Shown: positions 3,364 to 31,194 of the stretch, piece by piece
Numbering within the stretch: position 1 is the first letter of the stretch
How the letters are laid out: each line of letters begins with the position of its first letter
Origin: Crocosphaera watsonii WH 8501
Lineage (GTDB): Bacteria; Cyanobacteriota; Cyanobacteriia; Cyanobacteriales; Microcystaceae
Reading direction: 5' to 3'
Length of the DNA: 64,000 nucleotides
NCBI RefSeq assembly: GCF_000167195.1
Contig: NZ_AADV02000005.1
Span: 1-64,000, forward strand
Position numbers and translations under genes: made by a program
The notes under the pieces: model-generated
Databases searched by the model: none
What the model was told of the DNA's origin: nothing
Seen by the model: only the letters and a program-made list of their open reading frames with translations

Positions 3364-5049
3364 ATGTCAGAGAATATAAGAAGTCGCCTCATAACCCACG
3401 GTCCTCAACGTACCCCAAACCGTGCAATGCTGCGTGCTGTGGGCTTCGGAGATGATGACTTTACTAAACCCATCGTTGGGGTAGCTAATGGCTTCAGTAC
3501 CATCACCCCCTGTAATATGGGGATTAACGACTTAACCAAGCGCGCTGAAGCAGGAATTAAAACGGCCGGTGGTATGCCCCAAATATTCGGTACTATTACT
3601 ATCAGTGATGGTATCTCTATGGGTACAGAAGGCATGAAATACTCCCTGGTGTCACGGGATGTCATTGCCGACTCTATCGAAACCGCTTGTAACGGTCAAA
3701 GTATGGATGGAGTGATTGCGATCGGTGGATGTGATAAAAATATGCCAGGGGCTATGATCGCTATGGCCAGAATGAATATACCTGGAATCTTCGTCTATGG
3801 GGGAACCATTAAACCCGGCCGCTACAACGGGGAAGATTTAACGGTGGTCAGTGCTTTTGAAGCAGTTGGCCAACATAGTGCAGGTAAGATAGATGATAAC
3901 ACACTATTAGCCATCGAGCGCAACGCTTGTCCCGGTGCTGGTTCCTGTGGGGGAATGTTCACCGCAAATACCATGTCTTCTGCTTTTGAAGTGATGGGGA
4001 TGAGTTTACCTTATTCCTCTACTATGGCGGCCGAAGATGCAGAAAAAGCAGACAGTACCGAAAAGTCAGCTTTTGCCCTAGTTAATGCCATTCGTAACCA
4101 AATTTTACCTAGTCAAATCTTAACCCGAAAAGCCTTTGAAAACGCCATTTCTGTAATCATGGCTGTAGGTGGTTCAACTAATGCTGTATTACACCTTTTA
4201 GCTATTGCTAATACCATGGGTGTTGAGTTAACTTTAGACGATTTTGAAACCATTCGTCAACGGGTTCCGGTACTATGTGATTTGAAACCATCGGGACGCT
4301 ATGTTACCGTTAATTTACATCAAGCTGGTGGCATTCCTCAAGTGATGAAAATGTTATTAACTCATGGGTTATTACATGGGGATGCCTTAACTATTTCTGG
4401 CCAAACTATCGCCGAAATTTTAGCTGATATACCAGAGCAACCTCCTGCTAATCAAGATGTTATTCGTCCTTGGGATAACCCTGTTTACAAAGAGGGACAT
4501 CTAGCCATTTTAAAAGGTAATTTAGCCTCCGAGGGTTCCGTTGCTAAAATTAGCGGTGTCAAGAACCCAACAATGACAGGCCCCGCACGAGTATTTGAGT
4601 CAGAAGAGGAATGTTTAGAGGCTATTTTAGCAGGAAAAATTAACGCAGGTGATGTGATTATTGTGCGTTATGAAGGTCCCAAAGGAGGCCCAGGAATGCG
4701 AGAAATGTTAGCACCAACCTCTGCTATTATTGGCGCAGGTTTAGGTGATTCTGTAGGCTTAATTACCGATGGACGTTTTTCAGGAGGAACCTACGGTTTA
4801 GTTGTGGGCCACGTTGCCCCAGAAGCTTATGTTGGGGGAACTATTGGGTTAGTAAAAGAGGGGGATAGTATTACCATTGATGCCAAAGAAAAGTTGTTAC
4901 AAGTGAACGTTTCTGAGGAAGAATTAGCCCAACGTCGCGCTAACTGGAAAGCCCCCGAACCTCGTTATAAAAGAGGGGTATTAGCCAAATATGCGAAGTT
5001 AGTTTCTTCTAGTAGTTTAGGAGGAGTTACTGACTTGAATTTGTTTTAA
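3364..5049 (+). CDS. ilvD: Dihydroxy-acid dehydratase
   Basis: It converts 2,3-dihydroxy-isovalerate and 2,3-dihydroxy-3-methylvalerate to the 2-keto acids in valine, leucine and isoleucine synthesis, in the cytosol. The 561-residue length is normal. The three cysteines expected to hold the iron-sulfur cluster are at 50 (STITPC), 123 (GGCDKNMPG) and 195 ([17 protein letters not shown]); the C-terminal GRFSGGTYG motif carries the proposed active-site serine. An AAGGAGA ribosome site lies 9-14 bases before the ATG. It stands alone and is followed by a short palindrome that may terminate it. It looks intact. Confidence 0.97.
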
Positions 5050-15512: not shown

Positions 15513-18227
15513 TTATCCATTGTCGAACATTTGTTTAACTATTATTGCTGCTTCTTGCTGAGTCTTAATTTCTCCATCTAAAGTTAAAGCGAGTAACCGA
15601 TCTAAGACAAGTTTATACTGTGGTCCTGGTTTATACCCCATACGCTTTAAATCATTACCATTTAAGGGTGCTTGAATTTTTGACCATTGGGTTAAATATT
15701 GCCAAATAATGCGTCTAACTTCTTTCTTAGAATTAACTGCAACTAAAATTAAATCGGCTAATTTATTGCGATATAACTGTTTATATTTATCGCTTATTTT
15801 ATTACATTTTAATAACAATTCTTGTATTTCTGAATAAATTATGTTATCTTTGTCTATTCTTTCTAGACTATCTTTAGGTAGGTGTAAATTAAGTGCAAGT
15901 TGTTTTCTTTCTTGGGGATTAATTTTAGAAATTAAGATTTCTAGACGAATCAACCAATGACCAATATTATTATCAGGATCAAGATATCTTAACCAACGAG
16001 AAGCACAGCGAATTTGCCACCATATCTTATCATCTAATATGACTTGATTATGCAAACATTTTAAAGAATCTAAATCTGACAGTAATTGTAATGCTGGTTT
16101 CCAATAATTTGCTTCTAAAATATACTTTGATTCTGCTTTTAAGCGTGTTGTTAAAGCAGGAGTTACATGATTTTTAAGTTTTAATTTATCGTAGATACCG
16201 CTTTCAATAGCATAACGGATATAGGTTTCTGTCTGGGGTTCAATGTCAAAGTTTAATCTGACAGCAAACCGCACAGCACGATAAATTCTGGTAGGATCTT
16301 CAATAAAACTATTGGCATGAAGTACCCGAACTTCTTTCCCTTTTAAATCTAATAAACCTCCAAAGAAATCTAATAATTCTCCTTCCCTTGGTGGGGTTAA
16401 TCTCACCGCTAAAGCATTAATAGTAAAGTCCCTTCTATATAAGTCTTGACGAATAGAACTTGATTCTACTTCGGGATTGGCTGCAGGGTAAGGATAAAAT
16501 TCAGTTCTTGAGGTAGCAATATCAATCCATAGTGACCCAAATTCTGGATCTTTATGCCATAATAAAGCTGCTGTCTGAAACTCTCCATGTACTGATAATC
16601 GACAGTTAGGATATTTTTTCTGTATGGTTGAAGCTAATTCAACCCCTGCACCAACATCAGCAGAGCGATGAAATCCATCTACGACTAAATCAATATCTTG
16701 AAGCGATACTTTTTGATTATTATTAGTTAGTAATAGGTCTCTAACTGCCCCTCCTACAATATATAAATGCCAGCCTTGATCTTCGGCTTCTTTAGCAATC
16801 ATTTCTAATAGTTTCCAAGTCGATTTTTTCAAAGAGTGACGCATTGAAGGTAATAAACAGGAAACCGTTGCCACTCTTTTCCCATTTTCGTCTTTAACTT
16901 CTTTTCTCTGTTGATGAATTTGCCGTAATAAGTCAGTGCGTGTAACAATCCCTAAGAGTCTATTATCATCAATAACTGGTAATCTTCCCACATCATAAGT
17001 TACCATGATTGATTCAATATCAGGTAATAAAGTATCAGGATTAATAGTTTTGATATTTTTGGTCATATATCCTTTTACTGGTGCGTGACTAAACCCATGA
17101 TGTAATGCTAAATCTAAATCTCGACGGGAAATAATCCCCACTAAATGATCTTTTTCATCCACCACCGATAACCCTGAATGGCCATAACGAAATAACACCC
17201 TTTCTGCTTGTTCGATAGTTGTTTCTGGATGAATAGTCCTCACTGGAGAAGACATTAAATCTCTGGCGTTTAAAGGGTGAGGAATTTGAGTAATAAATTC
17301 TTCTACTAACTGCTTTAATTTACCGTCAGCATCGACATTTCTTAACATTAAAGAAGCTGCTTGACTATGACCACCCCCTCCATAAAGTGAGAATAATTGA
17401 TTGAGATCAGTTCCTTCAATACGAGTCCTGCCAATAACAACTAAACGGTTTTCAGGATAAGGCTTATTATTGTGTCGTTTATGATAAATATGAGCAAACA
17501 ATAAAGCATCACTTTCGCTTAATTCAATCAATCTTTCTGTTAAATTAGATAATCCTGAAACAAAATTTTCTGTTTCAATAAGTACCCAAGCTACTTGATA
17601 TCCTCGAATATTATTTGTCTCTAATTTATCTAAAGCTTCTGTAAATATTTCTTGTAATTTAGGAGTCAAACCTGGATCACAATATTCAGCAATAATCTTA
17701 ACATTTGCCCCCTTCTCCATTAACCAAGCCAAAGCTTTTGCGTCCCTAGCAGTGGATTGGGGAAAGGTCAAAGAACCAGTGTCAACATGAATTCCTAACC
17801 CCATAATAGTCGCTTCAATGGGATTAGGATTAATATTATTTTCCTGCATTTTTTCCACAATTAAAGTGGTACTTGCTCCCACTGCTTCTATTTGCTGAAA
17901 AGTGGCAGGAATATCGGAGCTACTGTTAAGATGATGATCGTATAATTCCACACTCTCTATCTGTGGTAAATCAAACCATTCTGCTGCTTTTCCTAAACGA
18001 CTAAGTTGTTGGTTATCTACCACAATTAGGTGACGAATTCGTTTCGGGTTAACACTTCTTAACTCAATGAGGGCAATTTCATCTCGATGTAAAGCTAAAA
18101 AATCCTTAACCTTTGGATGGGCCCCACCGGTTAAAACGATGCGACTTCCTACTCTGAGACAAGATAAACCAACGGCCGCCCCTAATGCGTCAAAATCAAC
18201 CGTCTGGTGGCATAAAATTAAGTCCAT
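15513..18227 (-). CDS. DHH phosphoesterase - CBS - tRNA nucleotidyltransferase fusion
   Basis: A 904-residue fusion. Residues 1-300 are a DHH/DHHA1 phosphoesterase (NrnA-like): D11/D13 in [10 protein letters not shown]71, DHH at 97-99, and the [10 protein letters not shown] glycine loop near 280. Two CBS domains follow (~317-430, e.g. [20 protein letters not shown]), likely sensing a nucleotide. From ~490 there is a class II nucleotidyltransferase: [29 protein letters not shown] and the RAVRFAVRL helix. Such fusions in bacteria with split CCA enzymes are usually A-adding or CCA-adding tRNA nucleotidyltransferases. The DHH half might degrade nanoRNA or act in proofreading, which is inference. 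Intact. Confidence 0.85.
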
Positions 18228-18635: not shown

Positions 18636-20646
18636 AACCCAGATTCCGCACTTCAAAAAGTAGCATTAAATACTACAAGCCTGGGGTTAATAATTAAGTA
18701 TAATTGCTTAAGCTCTTGAAGACAAAAAAGTGGGATAATTGCTTAAGTTGTTTCCTCTGTAAAAAAAGAGCGAAAAATGTCTTATTTAGAAGAAATACAA
18801 GTTAAAAATTTAGACCATTTAGGGATAGTAGCTGGTTTAATTGATGAAATAGGAATAGTCAAAATAATTAATAATAAATTAGGAATAGATGTTAGAGAAA
18901 AAATCTCAGCAGGTACAGTAGTTAAGTCTATTTTAATCAATGGACTAGGATTTGTTTCAAGACCTCTATATTTATTCAGTCAGTTTTTTCAAGATAAAGC
19001 CATTGAGAAATTGTTAGGAGAAAGAATTCAACCTGATTACCTTAATGATGATAAAATTGGGAGAGTAATGGATGAATTATATAAATATGGACTAAATGAT
19101 ATTTTTATTGAAGTAGTTTTAGAAGTAATTAAAAAATTTAAAATAGACCTTAAATACTCCCATTTAGATTCCACATCATTTCATTTAGATGGAGAATATA
19201 AAAGGGAAGAAGATAAAGAGAAACAGGAAGAAGAAAAAATTATTAAAGAAAGACCAATTTTTATTAAGAAAGGATATTCTCGGGATCATAGACCAGACTT
19301 AAAACAATGTGTCTTGGATTTAATAACAAGCCAAGATGGAGATATTCCATTATTTGTGAGAGTAGGAGATGGAAATGAATCTGATAAAGCCGTATTTGGA
19401 AAAGTTTTAGTAGAATTCAAAAAGCAAATAAAGTTTGATAGTATCATGGTTTGTGATAGTGCTTTATATGGTCAAGAAAATCTCCAACTAATCCAACATT
19501 TAAAATGGATAACGAGAGTTCCAATGACCATAAAAAAAGCAAAAGAATTAGTGCAAAATATAGAGGTGGAAGAAGTAAAAGATGAAGATAAAGAAAAAAG
19601 AAGTGACCTAAATTTAGAAAGTTATACCTGGAAAGAAGAAATTGTTGCTTATGGTGGAATCAAGCAAACTTGGTTAATAGTCTTGAGTGAAAAAAGACAG
19701 AAAAGTGATTTGGAAAAACTAGAAAAACAACTTTCCCAAGAAGAGAAGAAATCCCAAAAATTTCTTAAAGAAATACAATCTGAAGAATTTGAACATCCTC
19801 AAGCTGCTCGATATAAATTAAAAGCTATTAATAAAAAATTGAGATTGTTGGAAATAAAAGAAGTTGAACTGATTGAAACTTACTCGAAAAAAAAGGAAAA
19901 GATTTATAAAATGATTAGTCTGATCATCAAAAAAGATGAAGAGATAAGTAGAAAGACTAAAGAAGCAGGAAAATTTATTTTAGCAACTAACTTAGTAGAG
20001 GAAAATAAATTAGAAGCTAGTGAAATTCTGATAACTTATAAAAACCAGCAATCTACGGAAAGAGGATTTCGATTTTTGAAAGATCCCTTATTTTTTACTG
20101 ATAGTTTCTTCGTTGAAAAACCAGAAAGAATAGAAACAATGTTATTTTTAATGTCTTTGTGTTTGTTGATTTATAACTTGGGGCAAAGAGAATTAAGAAA
20201 TTGTTTAAAAAGAGTCAAAAAAGGAATAAATAATCAAGTAGGGAAAGTAACATTGCGTCCAACTTTGAGGTGGATATTTCAATGTTTTCAAGGTATTCAT
20301 TATGTGATTTTAAACGGAGTTAAACAAATTGTCAATTAAACAGAAGAAAGGCGTTTTATATTGAGTTTATTACCTGCATCTTGTCAAAGATATTATCTAT
20401 AAATTGAATTGGATAAAGCAAAAATAATAAAAGAATAAGAGTCTAATGATATCAAATGAGAAGAGGAAACTCTCCTTCGTTTGTGCTGAGTCTTGCTAAG
20501 TTTTCAATGAGTATAAATCTTCTTAATTTGATTATTTTTCCTAAAAATTTAATGAAAAGAGAAATATTCTTGCCCAGGTATGATTTTCGGACTTTTTAAA
20601 ACTATGTATTTTTTTATACTACATTTTGAAGTGCGGAATCTGGGTT
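18636..20646 (+). mobile_element. IS1634/IS4-like insertion sequence, near-complete (2011 bp)
   Basis: Terminal inverted repeats AACCCAGATTCCGCACTTC and its complement bound the element, with a promoter-proximal segment shared by all copies (TTAAGCTCTTGAAGAC region). No clear target duplication is visible (left flank TTGTTTT, right flank AAATTTA). The left neighbour is a decapitated LigD-like gene and the right neighbour is half a group II intron, so this IS sits at a junction of two unrelated broken units. This suggests deletion or recombination through IS copies. Confidence 0.9.
18777..20339 (+). CDS. IS1634/IS4-like transposase, late nonsense
   Basis: 520 residues with the DDE architecture of IS1634-type IS4 relatives: SHLDSTSFHLDGEY (first Asp), IMVCDSALYGQEN (second Asp), a Lys/Glu-rich coiled insertion (~240-400), and NQQSTERGFRFLKDP (Glu). 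The fragment at 50-629 reads VNLTEERRFILS where this copy has a TAA (AATTTA became AATTAA). About 18 C-terminal residues are therefore lost. All three catalytic positions are present, so activity is possible but uncertain. ATG preceded by AAAGAGCGAAAA. Confidence 0.85.
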   Translation: MSYLEEIQVKNLDHLGIVAGLIDEIGIVKIINNKLGIDVREKISAGTVVKSILINGLGFVSRPLYLFSQFFQDKAIEKLLGERIQPDYLNDDKIGRVMDELYKYGLNDIFIEVVLEVIKKFKIDLKYSHLDSTSFHLDGEYKREEDKEKQEEEKIIKERPIFIKKGYSRDHRPDLKQCVLDLITSQDGDIPLFVRVGDGNESDKAVFGKVLVEFKKQIKFDSIMVCDSALYGQENLQLIQHLKWITRVPMTIKKAKELVQNIEVEEVKDEDKEKRSDLNLESYTWKEEIVAYGGIKQTWLIVLSEKRQKSDLEKLEKQLSQEEKKSQKFLKEIQSEEFEHPQAARYKLKAINKKLRLLEIKEVELIETYSKKKEKIYKMISLIIKKDEEISRKTKEAGKFILATNLVEENKLEASEILITYKNQQSTERGFRFLKDPLFFTDSFFVEKPERIETMLFLMSLCLLIYNLGQRELRNCLKRVKKGINNQVGKVTLRPTLRWIFQCFQGIHYVILNGVKQIVN

Positions 20647-21158
20647 AAATTTAAGAATAGAATCTTTTGGGCATCATGGGTTGAGCGTCCAGGTCTAAAC
20701 CCGTAGCTTCTGGCGTGAAAAAGTGCTTCGTGTGCTGGTTCTAGGTCATATTTCACAAGGCATTGCCATGCTCTGTCTGCCATAGTTGGAACCTTTAGCA
20801 TTCTGGTCGTACCGTCCTTTTTGGGGATGGGTATTTCTCGTAGCTTAGAGTGTTTCCAGTGGTGAGCTTTGGGTAACCTTTCTGCTAGGGCAAACCGTTG
20901 TTTGAAATTGAGGGATTTTATCCCGTCTATTCCTGCGGTCTTCTTGCCAGTATTTAGCTGTGATACTTGTCGGACAGCGAGTAGTCTAGCAGCTTTGGAT
21001 TTCAAAATAAGCTTTTGTATGTTCCTAGCTCGTCTAGTGTCCTCTGCTTGAATGGCTTTGAACAATCTTCTTTGGAGACGGAAAAGATTTCTGCGAAATT
21101 TCTTCCACGGAATGTTTTTCCAGAGTTCACTAAAATCTATGATTTTGTGTCTAACCAT
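20647..21158 (-). pseudogene. Group II intron reverse transcriptase/maturase, N-terminal part
   Basis: Start chosen at MVRHKIIDFSELW (ATG at 21156-21158) because GAGGTGAAC lies just before it; an open frame extends further upstream but within ribozyme sequence. Present are RT0/RT1-type motifs (TAGIDGIKS, LREIPIPKKDGTTRML, VPTMADRAWQ) and YGFRPGRSTHDA of block 2/3. The YADD catalytic block, maturase domain X and endonuclease domain are lost where the IS begins. The last residues seen downstream of KILFLNL are IS sequence. Confidence 0.85.
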
Positions 21159-21922
21159 GTTCACCTCGGTTAATCGTTTTCTATTTGCCTCGAAGCAATT
21201 ACGCTTCGTCCTACCCGAATCTAGAGGATTCCGCATCTCGTCTTGCCTACTCAGGGTTCGACTATTTCCTGAGACTCTAGATTCGTTTTTATTCGTTCCG
21301 TCCGATGATTGATTGTCCCTTTAGATGGAACCGATTTGACTATCGGAAACCCTTGGTTAAGTCAGTCACACCTGAAAGATGCTGACGGGTTACGTTGCTC
21401 CGATGAGGTCAGGGGATACTATTCTTTCTGCTTTACCTGCCTTCAAGTAAGTCACTTTTATAGGTTCTGTTTCATCGTGGGGACTCCTGTAACGCCAGTG
21501 TCACCAGCAGTCGGTGTCTGATTGCGTCCTATTCCCTGCTTCAGCCTCCCAAATTCCGAGTTGGGTCACTGAGGGTAGGTCTTGAGTCATGTCTAACCTT
21601 GACAGGGAGGACTTTCACCTCCATCAATCGGACAGTTACTCAGATTAGGTGTTTATGCTGTTCGGTAATCCCTACTTAGCTTGTTCGGTAATTTGTCATT
21701 AAGTTTTGTAAACTTGTTGGCTTTTACCTGATGTTTGGTTTTTGTCCATTTGACTTTCCTAGATTGTCCCCTTCGAGGATGACCTTTAGTGGGTCTGATT
21801 TTCCTTTAGGGTCTAGTTGGTCATTTCCACCTTGTTTGACTCCTTATGGAGCCTCTGAGCGAGTCACACGCTGTATCTTTGTCTAGTACTAAATATCAGC
21901 TTTCTGACTCATCGAATCGCAC
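20647..21922 (-). mobile_element. Group II intron, 5' half only
   Basis: On the minus strand the intron begins GTGCGATTCGATGAGTC at 21922, matching the GUGYG 5' consensus, directly after ...AACCTGG of an interrupted glycosyltransferase gene. Around 1.1 kb follows with the sequence character of a ribozyme domain I region (many short inverted repeats), leading into a reverse transcriptase gene with its own GAGGTG ribosome site. The IS1634-like right end at 20646 cuts the intron inside that gene. Domains V and VI and the 3' exon are missing, so it cannot splice. Confidence 0.8.
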
Positions 21923-26118: not shown

Positions 26119-27093
26119 GTGAGCAGTTACATTGAGTTAAACGATATTTACACTCAAGTTAATATTTTAGAAAAAATTATTGGCCGCAGAGGATTTAATT
26201 TAGATGAACTTTTTCAGAACTTTAATTTAGAAAAAGATGAATTTGATCGCTTTGGTTTAAACAAGATTACACAGGAAAGAGTTTTAGGGTTAGACGCAGT
26301 TAATGAGCATGATAAGTTAATGATTTTAGGTAAACCTGGTGTAGGAAAAACGACGTTTCTTAAATATTTAGCGATACAATGTAACAGAGGAGAATTTGCT
26401 GCGACGAAAATCCCCATATTTATTCCTTTGAAAAAATATGCAGAAACCGAAAATAGTCCATATTTATCCAGTTATATGATTAAATGGTTTGAAGATTGTA
26501 AGATAACTAATGCTTCTGAAAAATTAGAGAGAATCTTAACAGAAGGGAGAGGATTAATATTACTGGATGGTTTAGACGAAGTAAGGGAAGAAGACAGCGA
26601 AAGAGTAATCAGAAATATTGAAAGTTTTTATAGCCGTTATGATAAGAATAAATTTGCTGTTACTTGTCGTATTGCGGCGAAAGAATATACTTTTACTCAG
26701 TTTACAGAAGTAGAAGTTGCAGATTTTGATGATGAGCAAATTAAGACTTTTGTGAATAGTTGGTTTAAAATTAAACAGTTAACTGACTATCCCAAACATT
26801 TTCTAGAACAGATAGAAAATAATCCTACTATCAAAGAATTAGGGAATAATCCTTTGCTGTTAACTCTATTATGTTTAGAGTTTGAAGATTCAGGTAATTT
26901 TCCCTCAGATAGAGCAGATTTATACGCAAGAGCAACTAATACTTTGTTAAGAAAATGGGACAATAAACGTAATATTTATCGTGACCAAGTATATAAAGAA
27001 CTGACTCCTAAAAGAAAAGAAGGGTTACTGAGTCAAATTGCTTTTAAAACCTTTGATAAGAAAGAATATTTCTTTAAATTGGACTTTGGATAA
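26119..27093 (+). pseudogene. NACHT-domain NTPase, truncated at both ends
   Basis: 324 residues from a GTG. YIELNDIYTQVNILEKIIGRR is the usual lead-in of cyanobacterial NACHT proteins but normally lies some 150 or more residues into them. The NTPase core is complete: P-loop GKPGVGKTT (71-79), Walker B LILLDGLDEV (146-155), sensor CRIAAKEY, and the NNPLLLTLLC helix. The C-terminal repeat or sensor region is missing: the frame ends at KKEYFFKLDFG seven bases before a 29-bp palindrome. NACHT proteins are STAND-type signalling ATPases, several of which protect bacteria against phage. Without sensor and effector parts this one is likely inert. Confidence 0.7.
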
Positions 27094-27247: not shown

Positions 27248-28940
27248 AGGTTTTGCTGAATAAAAGCAAAACCCTATTCTTTAAAAGGTTACACCCATAT
27301 TCGCGATCGCAAAAAAGATCAGCTTTGTCGGCTACAAACCGCTATAATTGGTAGAAACACCTCCCAGTTGTTGGTCAAGAACAAATGTATCGAAAAGAGG
27401 AGCAACCTTTACCGCCCCCAGAAAAATTTGAATTACCTTTCGAGGGCAAATTGTCCCCCAATAATCGTTGGGTAATCATGGCAGAGTTGATACCTTGGGA
27501 TGATTTTGAGGAAGAATATGCTAAACTTTTTTCAGCAGAAAAAGGTGCGCCAGCCAAACTATTTAGAATGGCATTAGGGACATTAATTATTAAGGAAAAA
27601 TTAGGAACAAGTGATAGAGAAACTATAGAACAGATTAGAGAAAATCTCTATCTACAATACTTTATAGGTTTAAATTGTTATCAACAAGAGCCACCACTGG
27701 AATCTTCAATGCTAGTTCATTTTAGGAAAAGAATTGATGGAGAATTGATAAACAAAATCAATAAAAAAATAGTAAAAAGAGAAATAGACAAGAGTGATAA
27801 AGAAGTAAAAAAAAAGGATTGTCTCCAAGAAAAAGGAGAAAAAATAAAAAATAAAGGTAAACTAATTTTAGATGCGACTTGTGCGCCAGCAGACATCAAA
27901 TACCCAACGGATTTAGGCATATTAAATCAAGCCAGAATTGAGACAGAAAGAATAATAGATAATCTTTATAAACCATTAAGAGTAAAATTGATAAAAAAGC
28001 CGAGAACTTCTAGAAAAATTGCTAGAAAGGAATACTTAAAAGTAGCTAAAAAACGAAAAGTATCTTATCAAGAAAGAAGAAAAGCTATCGGGGAACAGTT
28101 AAAATACCTTAAGAAAAATTTAGGAAATATAGAAGACTTAATTCAAGCTGGGGCTTCCCTGGAAAATCTGAGTAAAAGACAGAAAAATTGTCTAGAGACT
28201 ATCAAAAAAGTTTATGAACAACAACAGTCAATGTGGGAGAATAAGACCCAGAGTGTTCCTCAAAGAATTGTAAGTTTAACTCAACCGCATATTCGTCCAA
28301 TAGTGAGGGGAAAAGCAGGAAAACCAATAGAGTTTGGAGCTAAACTCTCAGTAAGCTGTGTAGATAACTATGTGTTTCTAGACAAAATAAGTTGGGAAAA
28401 CTTCAATGAATCTTGTCATTTAAAAGAACAAGTAGAAAAGTATAAAGAAACGTTTGGCTATTATCCCGAATCCGTCCATGTAGATAAAATTTATCGAACT
28501 AGGGAAAACAGAAATTGGTGTAAGGAAAGAGGGATAAGAATCAGTGGTCCGAAGTTAGGAAGACCTCCGAAAAATGTCAGTGAAGAAGAAAAGAAAGAAG
28601 CCCACTCCGATGAATGCTTCCGTAATACTATTGAGGGAAAGTTTGGACAAGCTAAACGAAGATTTAGCCTAAATCTCGTGATGACAAAACTCCCTGAAAC
28701 CTCCATTACATCTATTGCTATTACATTTTTAGTTGTCAATCTTTCTAAACTTCTGAGGCAGTTTTTGTCGCTTTTTTTGTCCTTATTTACTAATAATAGA
28801 ACAGGGGAACTCATCAAACCGCCTTTCATTAATTTTGATTATACTTTAAACAATTTTTATGTACTAAAACTTATTGATTTGTCAGAAAATTCTTGGTCAA
28901 AAGTGGCATAAATTTTGGAGAAGCTTTTTCAGCAAACCCT
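27248..28940 (+). mobile_element. IS1182/IS5-like element, intact transposase (1693 bp)
   Basis: Left tip AGGTTTTGCTGAATAAAAGC, right tip TTTTTCAGCAAACCCT. The left tip differs from the copy at 49023 by one base in the inverted repeat (AGGT for AGGG). Both have 1693 bp. No target duplication is obvious (left flank CTAAGT, right flank ATATAA). It is the only copy in the window with an uninterrupted transposase gene and could mobilise the others. Confidence 0.9.
27385..28911 (+). CDS. IS1182/IS5-like transposase, intact
   Basis: 508 residues, normal for the IS1182 group. The N-terminal DUF772-like domain (residues ~20-110) includes IKEKLGTSDRETIEQIRENL and LVHFRKRI. A Lys-rich linker follows, then the catalytic core: GKLILDATCAPADI (first Asp ~172), PESVHVDKIYRTREN (second Asp) and CFRNTIEGKFGQAKRRFS (Glu). 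Start MYRKEEQPLPPPEKF is shared by all copies; the upstream sequence AACAAATG lacks a strong ribosome site. It reads through the G-run and the Tyr codon that are mutated in the copies at 10991 and 49160. Confidence 0.9.
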   Translation: MYRKEEQPLPPPEKFELPFEGKLSPNNRWVIMAELIPWDDFEEEYAKLFSAEKGAPAKLFRMALGTLIIKEKLGTSDRETIEQIRENLYLQYFIGLNCYQQEPPLESSMLVHFRKRIDGELINKINKKIVKREIDKSDKEVKKKDCLQEKGEKIKNKGKLILDATCAPADIKYPTDLGILNQARIETERIIDNLYKPLRVKLIKKPRTSRKIARKEYLKVAKKRKVSYQERRKAIGEQLKYLKKNLGNIEDLIQAGASLENLSKRQKNCLETIKKVYEQQQSMWENKTQSVPQRIVSLTQPHIRPIVRGKAGKPIEFGAKLSVSCVDNYVFLDKISWENFNESCHLKEQVEKYKETFGYYPESVHVDKIYRTRENRNWCKERGIRISGPKLGRPPKNVSEEEKKEAHSDECFRNTIEGKFGQAKRRFSLNLVMTKLPETSITSIAITFLVVNLSKLLRQFLSLFLSLFTNNRTGELIKPPFINFDYTLNNFYVLKLIDLSENSWSKVA

Positions 28941-29158
28941 ATATAAATGGGCGTGTTTATCGAAAATAGTTGGGTCTAAAACCCCGCCTTTTAAGGCGCA
29001 TAGTTTTTGAAGCGGAGCATAAATCTCTGTTTCAAAAACAACTTCTGTGCGATAGCGCCGGAACGTAGTGAGGAACTTCTGACTTCTGACTTCGTTAAGA
29101 GCCTTGGTTTAATCAAGTACAAGTTCATCTTCATTCCTGGGTTCTGGCTGGATCTTGG
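28941..29158. other. Intergenic region with a short hairpin and direct repeats
   Basis: CCGCCTTTTAAGGCGC (28982-28997) forms a small hairpin, and ACTTCTG is repeated in tandem near 29076-29092. No gene is recognised, although an open frame from ~29086 leads into the next gene without a start codon, so that gene may once have begun further left. Confidence 0.4.
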
Positions 29159-29788
29159 TTGTACAAAGCACGACGGGTAAGGGCTTTTTCTCATCATTTT
29201 GATAGTTGGCAACAATTCTGTGAGAAAGCATTGAATCTTTCTCAGTTCCAAGTAAACAATTATATTAAGGCCGCTAGGGTATTTAAGGATCTAGCGTTTA
29301 GTGGTTTTAAGATTTTACCCAAGTGCGTTAGTCAATGTCTCCCCTTGGCAAAACTTAAAGACTACGAATTGACCGAGGCGTGGCAAAAAGTTATTGATGA
29401 GAACCCACCCCATAGGATTACTAAAAATGCGATCGAAGCCACCATCAAAGGTGAACCCCTAGCAATCAAGAAACGGTTAGAGATACCCTTGCCAGAATGG
29501 GAAAACTTTGAGCAACGCTGTAAAGACGCTGGTTTGAACCCAAAAGACGAACTGCAAAAATTCTTAGGAGGTTAGGATCCAGAAACAGGGGAAATGAGCG
29601 AAGAAGATGATCTCAAAGATGATGAAGTTGAGGAGGTTGATCCCGAAAAGATAGAAGTATGGGAAGACGATGTTAAAAACTTAGTTAACGAGTATCAAGT
29701 AGCATATAACCTGAGCGTATTTTCGGTTAAAGTCATCCTTGACTGGGTGAACCGGATCAGGAATATTTTCCCCTCCCCACCTGAATGA
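29159..29788 (+). pseudogene. Putative DNA-binding protein with acidic tail, split by an in-frame TAG
   Basis: The first part (138 residues, TTG start) includes FDSWQQFCEKALNLSQFQVN with a helix-turn-helix look (LNLSQFQVNNYIKAARVFKDL) and ends ELQKFLGG followed by TAG. The frame continues with DPETGEMSEEDDLKDDEVEE and a further ~45 residues to 29788. Both parts are in the same frame, separated only by the TAG, so they are probably one ~210-residue protein. Alternatively, the second part starts at its own ATG (29594) as a 64-residue acidic protein. The family is not recognised; the HTH-like part recalls plasmid or phage replication/partition proteins. It sits directly upstream of a structured leader and an IS110-like gene. 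Confidence 0.45.
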
Positions 29789-30071
29789 GAACTGGACGGC
29801 GACCAGTCGAAATGACCTTACTAGAGGTAAGGTTATCGTGGGAAGCTTCCAACCCTTCTCACCGGGTAGTAATGGGTTTACGTGGCTTTTAGAGAGATGT
29901 AAGCACCATTTTAGGGCTTTTATGATCATCGTAAGCACTAATTAACCCACACTAATCCGAGATCAGCTTAAGACAGAGGTAAGCACCCGAATGCGTGGGC
30001 TTGTGGGAGTATCGTAGCGAATATGATCTAAATTCTTAGGGTTGGCAAATTAAAATCAAGGACACTCCGTA
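29789..30071 (+). ncRNA. Structured leader upstream of the IS110-like gene; candidate bridge-type RNA
   Basis: 283 non-coding bases with three consecutive hairpins: ACTGG/CCAGT (29791-29807); ACCTTAC/GTAAGGT with a 5-base loop (29815-29833); GTGGGAAG/CTTCTCAC (29838-29862). The octamer GTAAGCAC then occurs three times (29899, 29931, 29979). In several IS110 elements the guide (bridge) RNA is encoded in the non-coding end before the recombinase gene, the position seen here. Calling it an RNA gene is inference; a protein-binding or regulatory leader is equally possible. Confidence 0.35.
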
Positions 30072-31112
30072 ATGACAATTGTAGGATTGGACATAGGAAA
30101 GCACGGTAATGCCGTAGCTGCTCCACTGCTTGCTATGCCCAAAAATATACTCAAGTATCATGATAACAAGGATAGTGTATTTCTACACTTAACTCCTAGT
30201 AAAAAGTCCATCAGGCAGTTGTTAGAACTAGAACCTACTGGTCTAGTTATGGAACCCACAGGAGGGTGGTATAGTGCTTTTTGGCATAGGGTGGCATTCG
30301 TCTATCACATCCCTGTTTACTGGATGGGACACGCGGATCTCAAGGGGCAACGATCGCACTTTGGATTTTCTAACAAATATGACAAGAATGACGCGCTGTG
30401 TTTAGCAGCATCTTATTTTGACCCATATTTCATCAACAAAGATGGTTCCAAGCGATTCTTAAGAGGATACCGCATAAAAGAGATACAAGCTGTACGGGAA
30501 CTGGTTTTAGAGTTAGAACAACTCGACAAATTAAGAACAACATTGGTCAATCAGTTAAGACAAAGGTTTGCCTTAGAATACCCAGAAGCGGCCGCACAAA
30601 CATGGCAAACGAACGATCACGGTATGACCCCTATAATTGAGTGGTTAATCGGCAAGAATCATCACGGTAGACGAGTAAACCACTACAACAATTCTGTCGC
30701 TAACAGCTTAGGTATTGACATCTCAGAATATTCTCTAGATCACGGTTACGCTATACATCACATAGAGCAGCGTCGTAGAGACACAGAAAGGATGTTAGAT
30801 GAAGCGATGGATCAAGAGTGCTTTATTCCCTACCGACAAGCTTTTAAGGGGTTTCGGTGGGGTATAGGAATGGAAGCTTTAACATTAATGAAGGTGTACC
30901 CCTTCGAAAAGTTCTTGGTAGATGGATTTCCTGTGGTTGAGTGGATTAAACCACCTAAGCGGTTAAATACAGAGATAGGGAAAAAGTTGGGGAAGAAATG
31001 GGACAATTTCAAGGACGCTAAGCAAGCTAAGGGGAAAGATGCTATTATGCGCTTAACGTTCTATGCCACTCGCTTGCTTTTCCAACAACTCAAGGATAAT
31101 ATCTGCTTTTAG
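30072..31112 (+). CDS. IS110-like DEDD recombinase/transposase, atypical C-terminus
   Basis: 346 residues. The N-terminus has the RuvC-like DEDD set of IS110 transposases: D7 (VGLDIGK), E61 (VMEPTGGW), D104 and D107 (KYDKNDALCLA). The middle coiled helices (IQAVRELVLELEQLDKLRTT) also fit. The C-terminal helix-hairpin-helix is recognisable (FRWGIGMEALTLMKVYPFEKF), but the usual Ser-Gly motif of the Tnp20 domain, which holds the catalytic serine, is absent; that stretch reads EWIKPPKRLNTEIGKKLG. It may be a divergent or degenerate IS110, or a related enzyme of unknown use. A hairpin terminator follows. No second copy is in the window. Confidence 0.65.
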   Translation: MTIVGLDIGKHGNAVAAPLLAMPKNILKYHDNKDSVFLHLTPSKKSIRQLLELEPTGLVMEPTGGWYSAFWHRVAFVYHIPVYWMGHADLKGQRSHFGFSNKYDKNDALCLAASYFDPYFINKDGSKRFLRGYRIKEIQAVRELVLELEQLDKLRTTLVNQLRQRFALEYPEAAAQTWQTNDHGMTPIIEWLIGKNHHGRRVNHYNNSVANSLGIDISEYSLDHGYAIHHIEQRRRDTERMLDEAMDQECFIPYRQAFKGFRWGIGMEALTLMKVYPFEKFLVDGFPVVEWIKPPKRLNTEIGKKLGKKWDNFKDAKQAKGKDAIMRLTFYATRLLFQQLKDNICF

Positions 31113-31125
31113 CTCTACAGCAATA

Positions 31126-31149
31126 ACCCACCAGCTTGTTATGGTGGGT
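31126..31149 (+). terminator. Terminator-like hairpin after the IS110-like gene
   Basis: ACCCACCA and TGGTGGGT form an 8-bp stem with an 8-base loop, followed by ATAATTTT. It lies 14 bases after the stop codon and insulates psbZ from upstream transcription. Confidence 0.6.
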
Positions 31150-31194
31150 ATAATTTTGACAGAAGTTTTATCTAGAGAGATAATGGAGCTAATT

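Follow-up and report, generated by a model that had tools for sequence, protein, structure and literature searches.

A probable dead right end of a large IS110_2-type element in Crocosphaera watsonii, and the putative bridge-RNA leaders of its cyanobacterial relatives

Introduction

The IS110 elements described so far usually consist of a single gene. That IS110 elements such as IS621 possess a bridge RNA is established (Durrant et al. 2024, PMC11208160), and IS110-type genes also lie at one end of filamentous prophages, including phiOH16/Zuza of Thermus and Nf of Neisseria (PMC11437467), a genus in which both filamentous phages and IS110 elements occur (PMC9778887). Hammerhead ribozymes of bacteria are in many cases reported close to integrase genes that group with prophages (Perreault et al. 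2011, PMC3088659). Here we describe an IS110-like locus in a 64,000-nucleotide stretch of Crocosphaera watsonii WH 8501 (contig NZ_AADV02000005.1, positions 1 to 64,000 of the forward strand), which we refer to as the window. The locus, a recombinase gene and the leader before it, is very probably what is left of the right end of a large mobile element of IS110_2 type, now dead and rearranged; the relatives of that element carry a probable bridge RNA and, in many cases, a hammerhead motif.

The family resembles IS621 in its DEDD recombinase, with a C-terminal serine motif in the relatives, and in an RNA with separate target and donor guides, a short core and a match between guide and flank; unlike IS621, it comprises many-gene elements, many have a hammerhead motif before the RNA, and the RNA adjoins the recombinase gene but sits about 12 kb from the left end in one genome, G018 (PMC11208160). 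The Thermus and Neisseria prophages likewise have an IS110-type transposase at one end, where it is thought to integrate the phage, whereas an endolysin-like gene, a tyrosine recombinase and a companion helix-turn-helix (HTH) gene distinguish the cyanobacterial elements (PMC11437467). No relation to those phages was found, and one element protein and one IS110_2 protein had no match in 50,697 phage records. The hammerhead motif has the CUGANGA/GAAA/NUH core and three stems of bacterial and phage hammerheads, but here it directly precedes a bridge RNA, which is itself followed by an IS110 recombinase gene (PMC3088659). Searches of the open-access literature, with most subscription papers and preprints outside their scope, returned nothing relevant by title or abstract for a hammerhead associated with IS110 or bridge RNA, and did not find the cyanobacterial elements among reports on IS110 with cargo, cyanobacteria or filamentous phage.

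Results and Discussion

Loss of the Ser-Gly motif from the recombinase

The open reading frame (ORF) at 30072-31112 encodes a protein of 346 amino acids (aa) that matches the NCBIfam model NF051857 "transpos_IS110_2" (E 1.2e-83, 281.4 bits, cut-off 180), although it covers only profile positions 2-286 of 393. The NF051857 entry describes a transposase only, and the window protein scores over its cut-off; the Pfam IS110 DEDD model matches weakly (E 0.024). The right end of the element reads as follows, all features lying on the + strand:

30072-31112, +, IS110_2 recombinase with the DEDD tetrad kept, internally deleted (NF051857 match)
30946-30947, +, scar of a private in-frame 174-bp deletion (58 codons, the Ser-Gly motif among them)
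31126-31149, +, terminator-like hairpin after the gene (ACCCACCA / TGGTGGGT), read from the sequence
31171-31181, +, right end of the element, TCTAGAGAGAT; similarity to other copies ceases just past it

The original prediction, made from the letters of the window without database searches, had assigned D7, E61, D104 and D107 as the DEDD residues of this protein and had failed to find the C-terminal Ser-Gly motif. Both observations hold: the four acidic residues are all present, and the 346-aa protein contains no "SG" throughout and no serine from residue 241 on. In the alignment of homologues that it had proposed as a check, D7, D104 and D107 are invariant in 15 IS110_2 proteins, E61 is present in 14 of them, and SG is present in all 14 proteins other than that of the window. 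A search of the PDB sequences with the IS110_2 profile returned no IS110 chains at E up to 1, and a search of a contig collection with the window protein gave no matches; whole-genome searches did give matches. Those in the window's own genome (6,238,068 bases in 323 contigs) and in a congener were:

C313:8661-9461, relic copy C313
C323:467107-467562, relic copy C323a
C323:615664-616259, relic copy C323b
C323:69962-70080, right-end piece
G015:C4:4699-5844, copy in the congener G015

The sibling pieces share 91-100% protein identity with the window protein, and SG occurs in both that span the deletion. Measured against C313, the deletion is exactly 174 bp and in frame; C313 and C323a have 174 bases between window positions 30946 and 30947, the corresponding stretch is present in G015, and all three encode ...LGLSRxVEQSGD... 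there. Because the window protein alone lacks SG among the 15 aligned and its relatives keep the stretch, the loss is private to the window copy, and the alignment indicates that the missing motif is an ordinary deletion in one copy. C323b is an internal-deletion derivative in which window 29573-29897 is fused almost directly to the 3' part of the gene. No full-length copy of the window's lineage was among the matches in its own genome; contig C301 of that genome carries an IS110_2 gene that is 29% identical and has an open frame. A second IS110_2 lineage within the window's genus is represented by loci L096, L097 and L098.

The original prediction had offered three accounts of the gene. The first, a functional divergent RNA-guided recombinase lacking Ser-Gly because of a changed active site, draws on the four conserved DEDD residues and the open frame, but the gap against the siblings is clean, both siblings spanning it have SG, no other aligned family member lacks the motif, and the companion gene and the ribozyme motif are damaged too. 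We consider this account almost wholly implausible and rejected it on the 174-bp gap that the siblings revealed, since homologues hold a clear Ser-Gly that this copy has lost. The second, a domesticated relative whose truncated protein has been retained in a different role, for instance as a bridge-RNA-binding regulator, would accord with a deletion that is in frame and leaves the remainder of the protein open. It is very unlikely given that the neighbouring parts are decaying and that the genome holds several other relic fragments of the element; no support for it was found, and no selection test was made. The third option, a decaying element, is borne out by the 174-bp deletion and by a companion gene split by a TAG codon (see below). 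With the 58-residue Ser-Gly stretch lost, the HTH gene carrying a nonsense codon and lacking its 5' end, and an insertion in the ribozyme core, the window copy should be inactive today. One point tells against a dead gene: the frame stays open past the scar, and the truncated protein may be expressed.

Guide modules and insertion sites in the relatives

Modules of the form GCTT-guide-AAGC occur at least three times in 34 of 55 leaders, that of the window included, and in 0.36% of simple shuffles, which preserve base composition only; seven of the 55 leaders have none. By position the modules follow the order left target, right target, left donor and right donor guide. When the right target guide is compared with the bases adjoining the element, an exact 5-nucleotide (nt) run is found in 9 of 13 readable loci (10 genomes). 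None of 150 cross-genome pairings of guide and flank reaches 4 nt or more, and none of 20,000 permutations attains the observed sum of guide-flank matches. Donor-guide strings in common with the right end of the element were the condition for entry into this 13-locus table. Loci L154 and L155 differ from each other at the same position in both the donor guide and the right end.

In the genome G018, the leader of the four copies is about 316 nt long. Within its first 270 columns, 12 vary between copies, and two short stretches, one of 5 nt and one of 8 nt, contain 7 of these 12. In L102, L103 and L105 the variable stretches match the copy's own insertion site at 5/5 positions on the left and 8/8 on the right, G:U pairs being allowed on the right side. 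The RNA thus fits its own site in three of the four copies. The G018 RNA begins at 16448 in the oriented L104 sequence and the left end lies near 4665, a distance of about 11.8 kb, so that this element lacks the arrangement of the IS110 group in which the RNA is found at the terminus, inside a long non-coding left end.

Several results weigh against this interpretation. Automatic reading succeeded at only 13 of 53 eligible loci, because the pattern requires certain module shapes and a GAA core, and four of the 13 readable right guides have no exact fit, although one of them, L096, fits over 8 nt with G:U pairs. Among loci dropped from the parse, inspection by eye found fits of 5-6 nt at L148, L149 and L107 and of 4 nt at L164, and a poor fit or none at L163, L161, L162, L097, L098 and L106. 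Finally, the L104 RNA is identical to that of L105 and mismatches L104's own site, which the L103 RNA fits; this suggests that L104 was aimed in trans or was later converted.

An alternative is that the leader is an mRNA leader or attenuator and not a bridge RNA. It directly precedes the coding sequence, and hairpins alone do not discriminate between the two. This explanation is nevertheless highly improbable, as the guides of the relatives match their insertion flanks and the copies of one genome vary at just those positions.

The leader of the window copy

In the window, the leader retains four guide modules, beginning at 29885, 29916, 29966 and 29999:

29885-29904, +, guide module 1, putative left target guide (role taken from the order in relatives), GCTTTTAGAGAGATGTAAGC; overlaps GTAAGCAC copy 1
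29916-29936, +, guide module 2, GCTTTTATGATCATCGTAAGC, from its order the right target guide; overlap with GTAAGCAC copy 2
29966-29984, +, guide module 3, GCTTAAGACAGAGGTAAGC, from its order the left donor guide; overlap with GTAAGCAC copy 3
29999-30018, +, guide module 4, GCTTGTGGGAGTATCGTAGC, from its order the right donor guide

The original prediction had pointed to three copies of GTAAGCAC in a strongly structured leader, at the place where some IS110 elements encode their bridge RNA. The repeats were located at 29899, 29931 and 29979, both strands of the 64 kb being otherwise free of them, and they number three because three of the four modules end in GTAAGC, GTAAGCAC representing their 3' arms. 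Module 4 resembles by eye the modules GGGAGATT and GGGTGATT of relatives. The proposal of a bridge-RNA site is supported by the modules of the relatives and the four kept here. A fold of 29776-30071 contains the hairpins, but its energy lends no support to strong structure (-81.6 kcal/mol, z = -1.03), with 28 of 200 shuffles folding at least as stably.

The leader's ordinary stability speaks against our interpretation of this copy, and so do the fits of its guides. The match of the right guide to the copy's own right flank is limited to the 3-nt core, and the same guide fits the sibling C323a over 6 nt, core included. The left donor module has 7 nt in common with the right end of C313 and just 4 nt with its own, and the predicted left-end string of the element was found only within the RNA itself, with no left end in the window. 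Given the poor fit of the guides, this RNA may not be the one that placed the window copy. Module 1 has 9 nt in common with the right ends of three copies, and 29885-29904 shares 9 nt with the element's own right end at 31171-31181, as if the left target guide were aimed at the end of another copy, i.e. at tandem insertion. The window RNA therefore looks like a member of the bridge-RNA family that has lost its tie to the present insertion.

A hammerhead-ribozyme motif before the RNA

Many leaders contain, ahead of the RNA, a motif with the layout CCGC-CUGANGA-stem II-GAAA-stem III-UC-GCGG. When the core and three stems of at least 4 bp were required, 19 of 54 leaders, belonging to 14 of 35 genomes, were found to have a canonical hammerhead motif, as were 2 of 2468 control windows; with stems as short as 3 bp accepted, an earlier scan had picked out 17 of 47 leaders and 11 of 3124 control windows. 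The 17 distinct motifs include many two-sided changes in the stems. Because the scan selects for pairing, full pairing in this set arises by construction, and the weight we place on the motif comes from its rate in the controls and from how varied the pair types are. In the window the corresponding feature is degenerate:

29776-29842, +, degenerate hammerhead motif, recognised by aligning 15 other leaders to it: CCCAC/GTGGG as stem I, CTGAATGA as core with one base too many, then GAAA, bulged stem II, stem III

Alignment places the predicted cleavage site between ATC and G, after 29837, and the first hairpins named in the original prediction correspond to stems II and III of this motif. The core reads CUGA-A-UGA in both the window and G015, an insertion after A6 of a kind for which low activity has been reported (Perreault et al. 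2011, PMC3088659). A relaxed-core scan accepts G015 and rejects the window because stem II of the latter is also bulged; the window thus departs from the canonical requirements, which are three stems together with CUGANGA, GAAA and NUH. In the same genus the L096, L097 and L098 leaders, inspected by eye in an alignment, have CTGATGATGA in place of CTGANGA before CGAAAC, and so present a further altered hammerhead-like core.

Arguing against a ribozyme, Rfam returned no hammerhead match in the window at E up to 10, none in eight relative loci at gathering thresholds, and none in two motif-bearing leaders at E up to 10. To these must be added the leaders of G018, G032 and G026, none of which passes the hammerhead scan.

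The companion gene and the larger element

Upstream of the leader, the original prediction had noted an HTH-plus-acidic gene, not usual for IS110. Both ORFs exist (HTH at 29159-29575, acidic at 29594-29788), but they are halves of a single gene split by a TAG, since in G015 the two parts form one ORF of 275 aa:

29099-29788, +, companion HTH-acidic gene, 5'-truncated relic split by TAG (tblastn with the 275-aa relative)

The TAG lies at 29573-29575, where G015 and C323b have TAC. tblastn with the 275-aa relative covers residues 47-275 with one internal TAG, similarity beginning only at residue 47, and the stop codon TGA at 29786-29788 falls inside the ribozyme-like core. The companion HTH proteins tried matched no Pfam or NCBIfam family over cut-off. 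Some relative of the protein exists in 88 of 291 genomes of the window's order, NF051857 being found in 113 of the 291 (over cut-off in 56).

We clustered ORFs from 55 contexts in 35 genomes, in 33 of which the recombinase was located; the resulting genome counts are not a random sample, because the contexts were picked for IS110 matches and one (G027) for an HTH match, and some contexts are shortened by contig ends. The companion HTH gene is present in 16 of the 35 genomes and lies upstream of the recombinase on the same strand at 18 of 52 loci, in 13 of the 33 genomes (17 loci counted by script and, in addition, L100, where 4 bases are common to the two ORF calls); at one locus, L178, it is on the other strand. 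The association that had been singled out as noteworthy is therefore recurrent. Other genes also recur upstream: one for a tyrosine recombinase is found in 20 genomes, one for a 277-aa protein in 17, those for a repressor-like HTH protein and for a 170-aa protein in 16 each, one for a 153-aa protein in 15 and one for a long Pro-rich protein in 12. The places and strands of these genes are recurrent too, and at least two of the set, the companion HTH gene included, occur within 14 kb upstream of the recombinase at 34 of 52 loci, in 23 of 33 genomes.

In other genomes, phage-like elements end on their right side with the recombinase, and those that were measured span 8.5-13.4 kb. In G018, four copies have about 13.4 kb in common, with differing flanks and right ends a few bases beyond the recombinase stop codon; L104 and L105 lie about 0.7 Mb apart on C1 (near 2.9 and 3.6 Mb), and their 13,442 bp show 100% identity at different sites; the element has therefore moved recently. 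Blocks in common extend over about 13.2 kb in G081 and about 8.5 kb in G032. It could be argued that the locus is an ordinary one-gene IS110 inserted beside an unrelated HTH gene, as the window has just the recombinase and the HTH gene and IS110 elements are usually of the single-gene type. We regard this as distinctly unlikely, because the HTH family recurs upstream on the same strand at the frequency given above and units of up to 13.4 kb ending at the recombinase are repeated within genomes.

According to PHROGs, the G018 element encodes endolysin-like (phrog_181, 1e-15), integrase-like and repressor-like proteins, and G209 a collagen-like protein with fibre-type matches. No terminase or capsid was recognised among the element proteins scanned. 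A peptide-pattern scan of IMG/VR with one element protein gave 80 pattern matches, none confirmed, and structure models of two conserved element proteins (mean predicted local distance difference test scores 71 and 73) had no Foldseek match in the PDB at E <= 0.001, nor did one of the two against a viral structure library at the same threshold. Searched alone against named genomes, the 277-aa protein identified ten loci, all cyanobacterial, with hosts including Microcystis, Aphanothece, Calothrix, Dulcicalothrix and Crocosphaera; an IS110 gene lies on the fetched stretch at three of the ten (L207, L209 and L213), and the other seven stretches end before the expected place. It is possible, if somewhat short of probable, that the better-preserved relatives form an undescribed family of cyanobacterial viruses, or of elements derived from viruses, of small size (about 8-14 kb) and with an RNA-guided IS110 integrase, a bridge RNA released by a hammerhead from a right-arm transcript, and target guides that change with the insertion sites.

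One element copy, L186, resides in a 178-kb cyanobacterial plasmid (CP150887.1, 8000-25000), where the recombinase is annotated as "transposase" and its neighbours mostly as "hypothetical protein".

In the window, the region upstream of the locus (8056-28911) contains several transposase-like ORFs and fragments, typed by eye except for a DDE transposase (27385-28911, Pfam) that ends 188 bp ahead of the start of the truncated HTH gene. Also present are a reverse-transcriptase-like ORF at 20619-21236 and a NACHT-type NTPase-like ORF at 26119-27093, the latter named by eye from motifs.

Proposed mechanism and implications

In the better-preserved relatives, small genes, in many cases with the companion HTH gene among them, lead into a non-coding RNA followed by the recombinase at the right end. 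Transcription from upstream would produce an RNA that the hammerhead motif, in the many relatives that have it, would cleave free. Two guides of this bridge RNA correspond to the target sequences that flank a short core and two to the element's own ends, and the recombinase, binding the RNA and presumably acting on a circular form of the element, would join element and target at the core. In this scheme we infer transcription, cleavage, RNA binding and circle formation, and likewise the present-day inactivity of the window copy; the deletion, the split companion gene, the guide modules, the fit of guides to flanks in relatives, the ribozyme motif and the common gene set are seen in the sequences themselves.

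The family apparently consists of undescribed large RNA-guided IS110 elements, and as such represents a natural case of a bridge-RNA recombinase apparently moving units of about 13 kb. Natural changes in its guides can be read directly against insertion sites, and the self-cutting ribozyme motif before the bridge RNA suggests a route by which the RNA may be made away from the element end.
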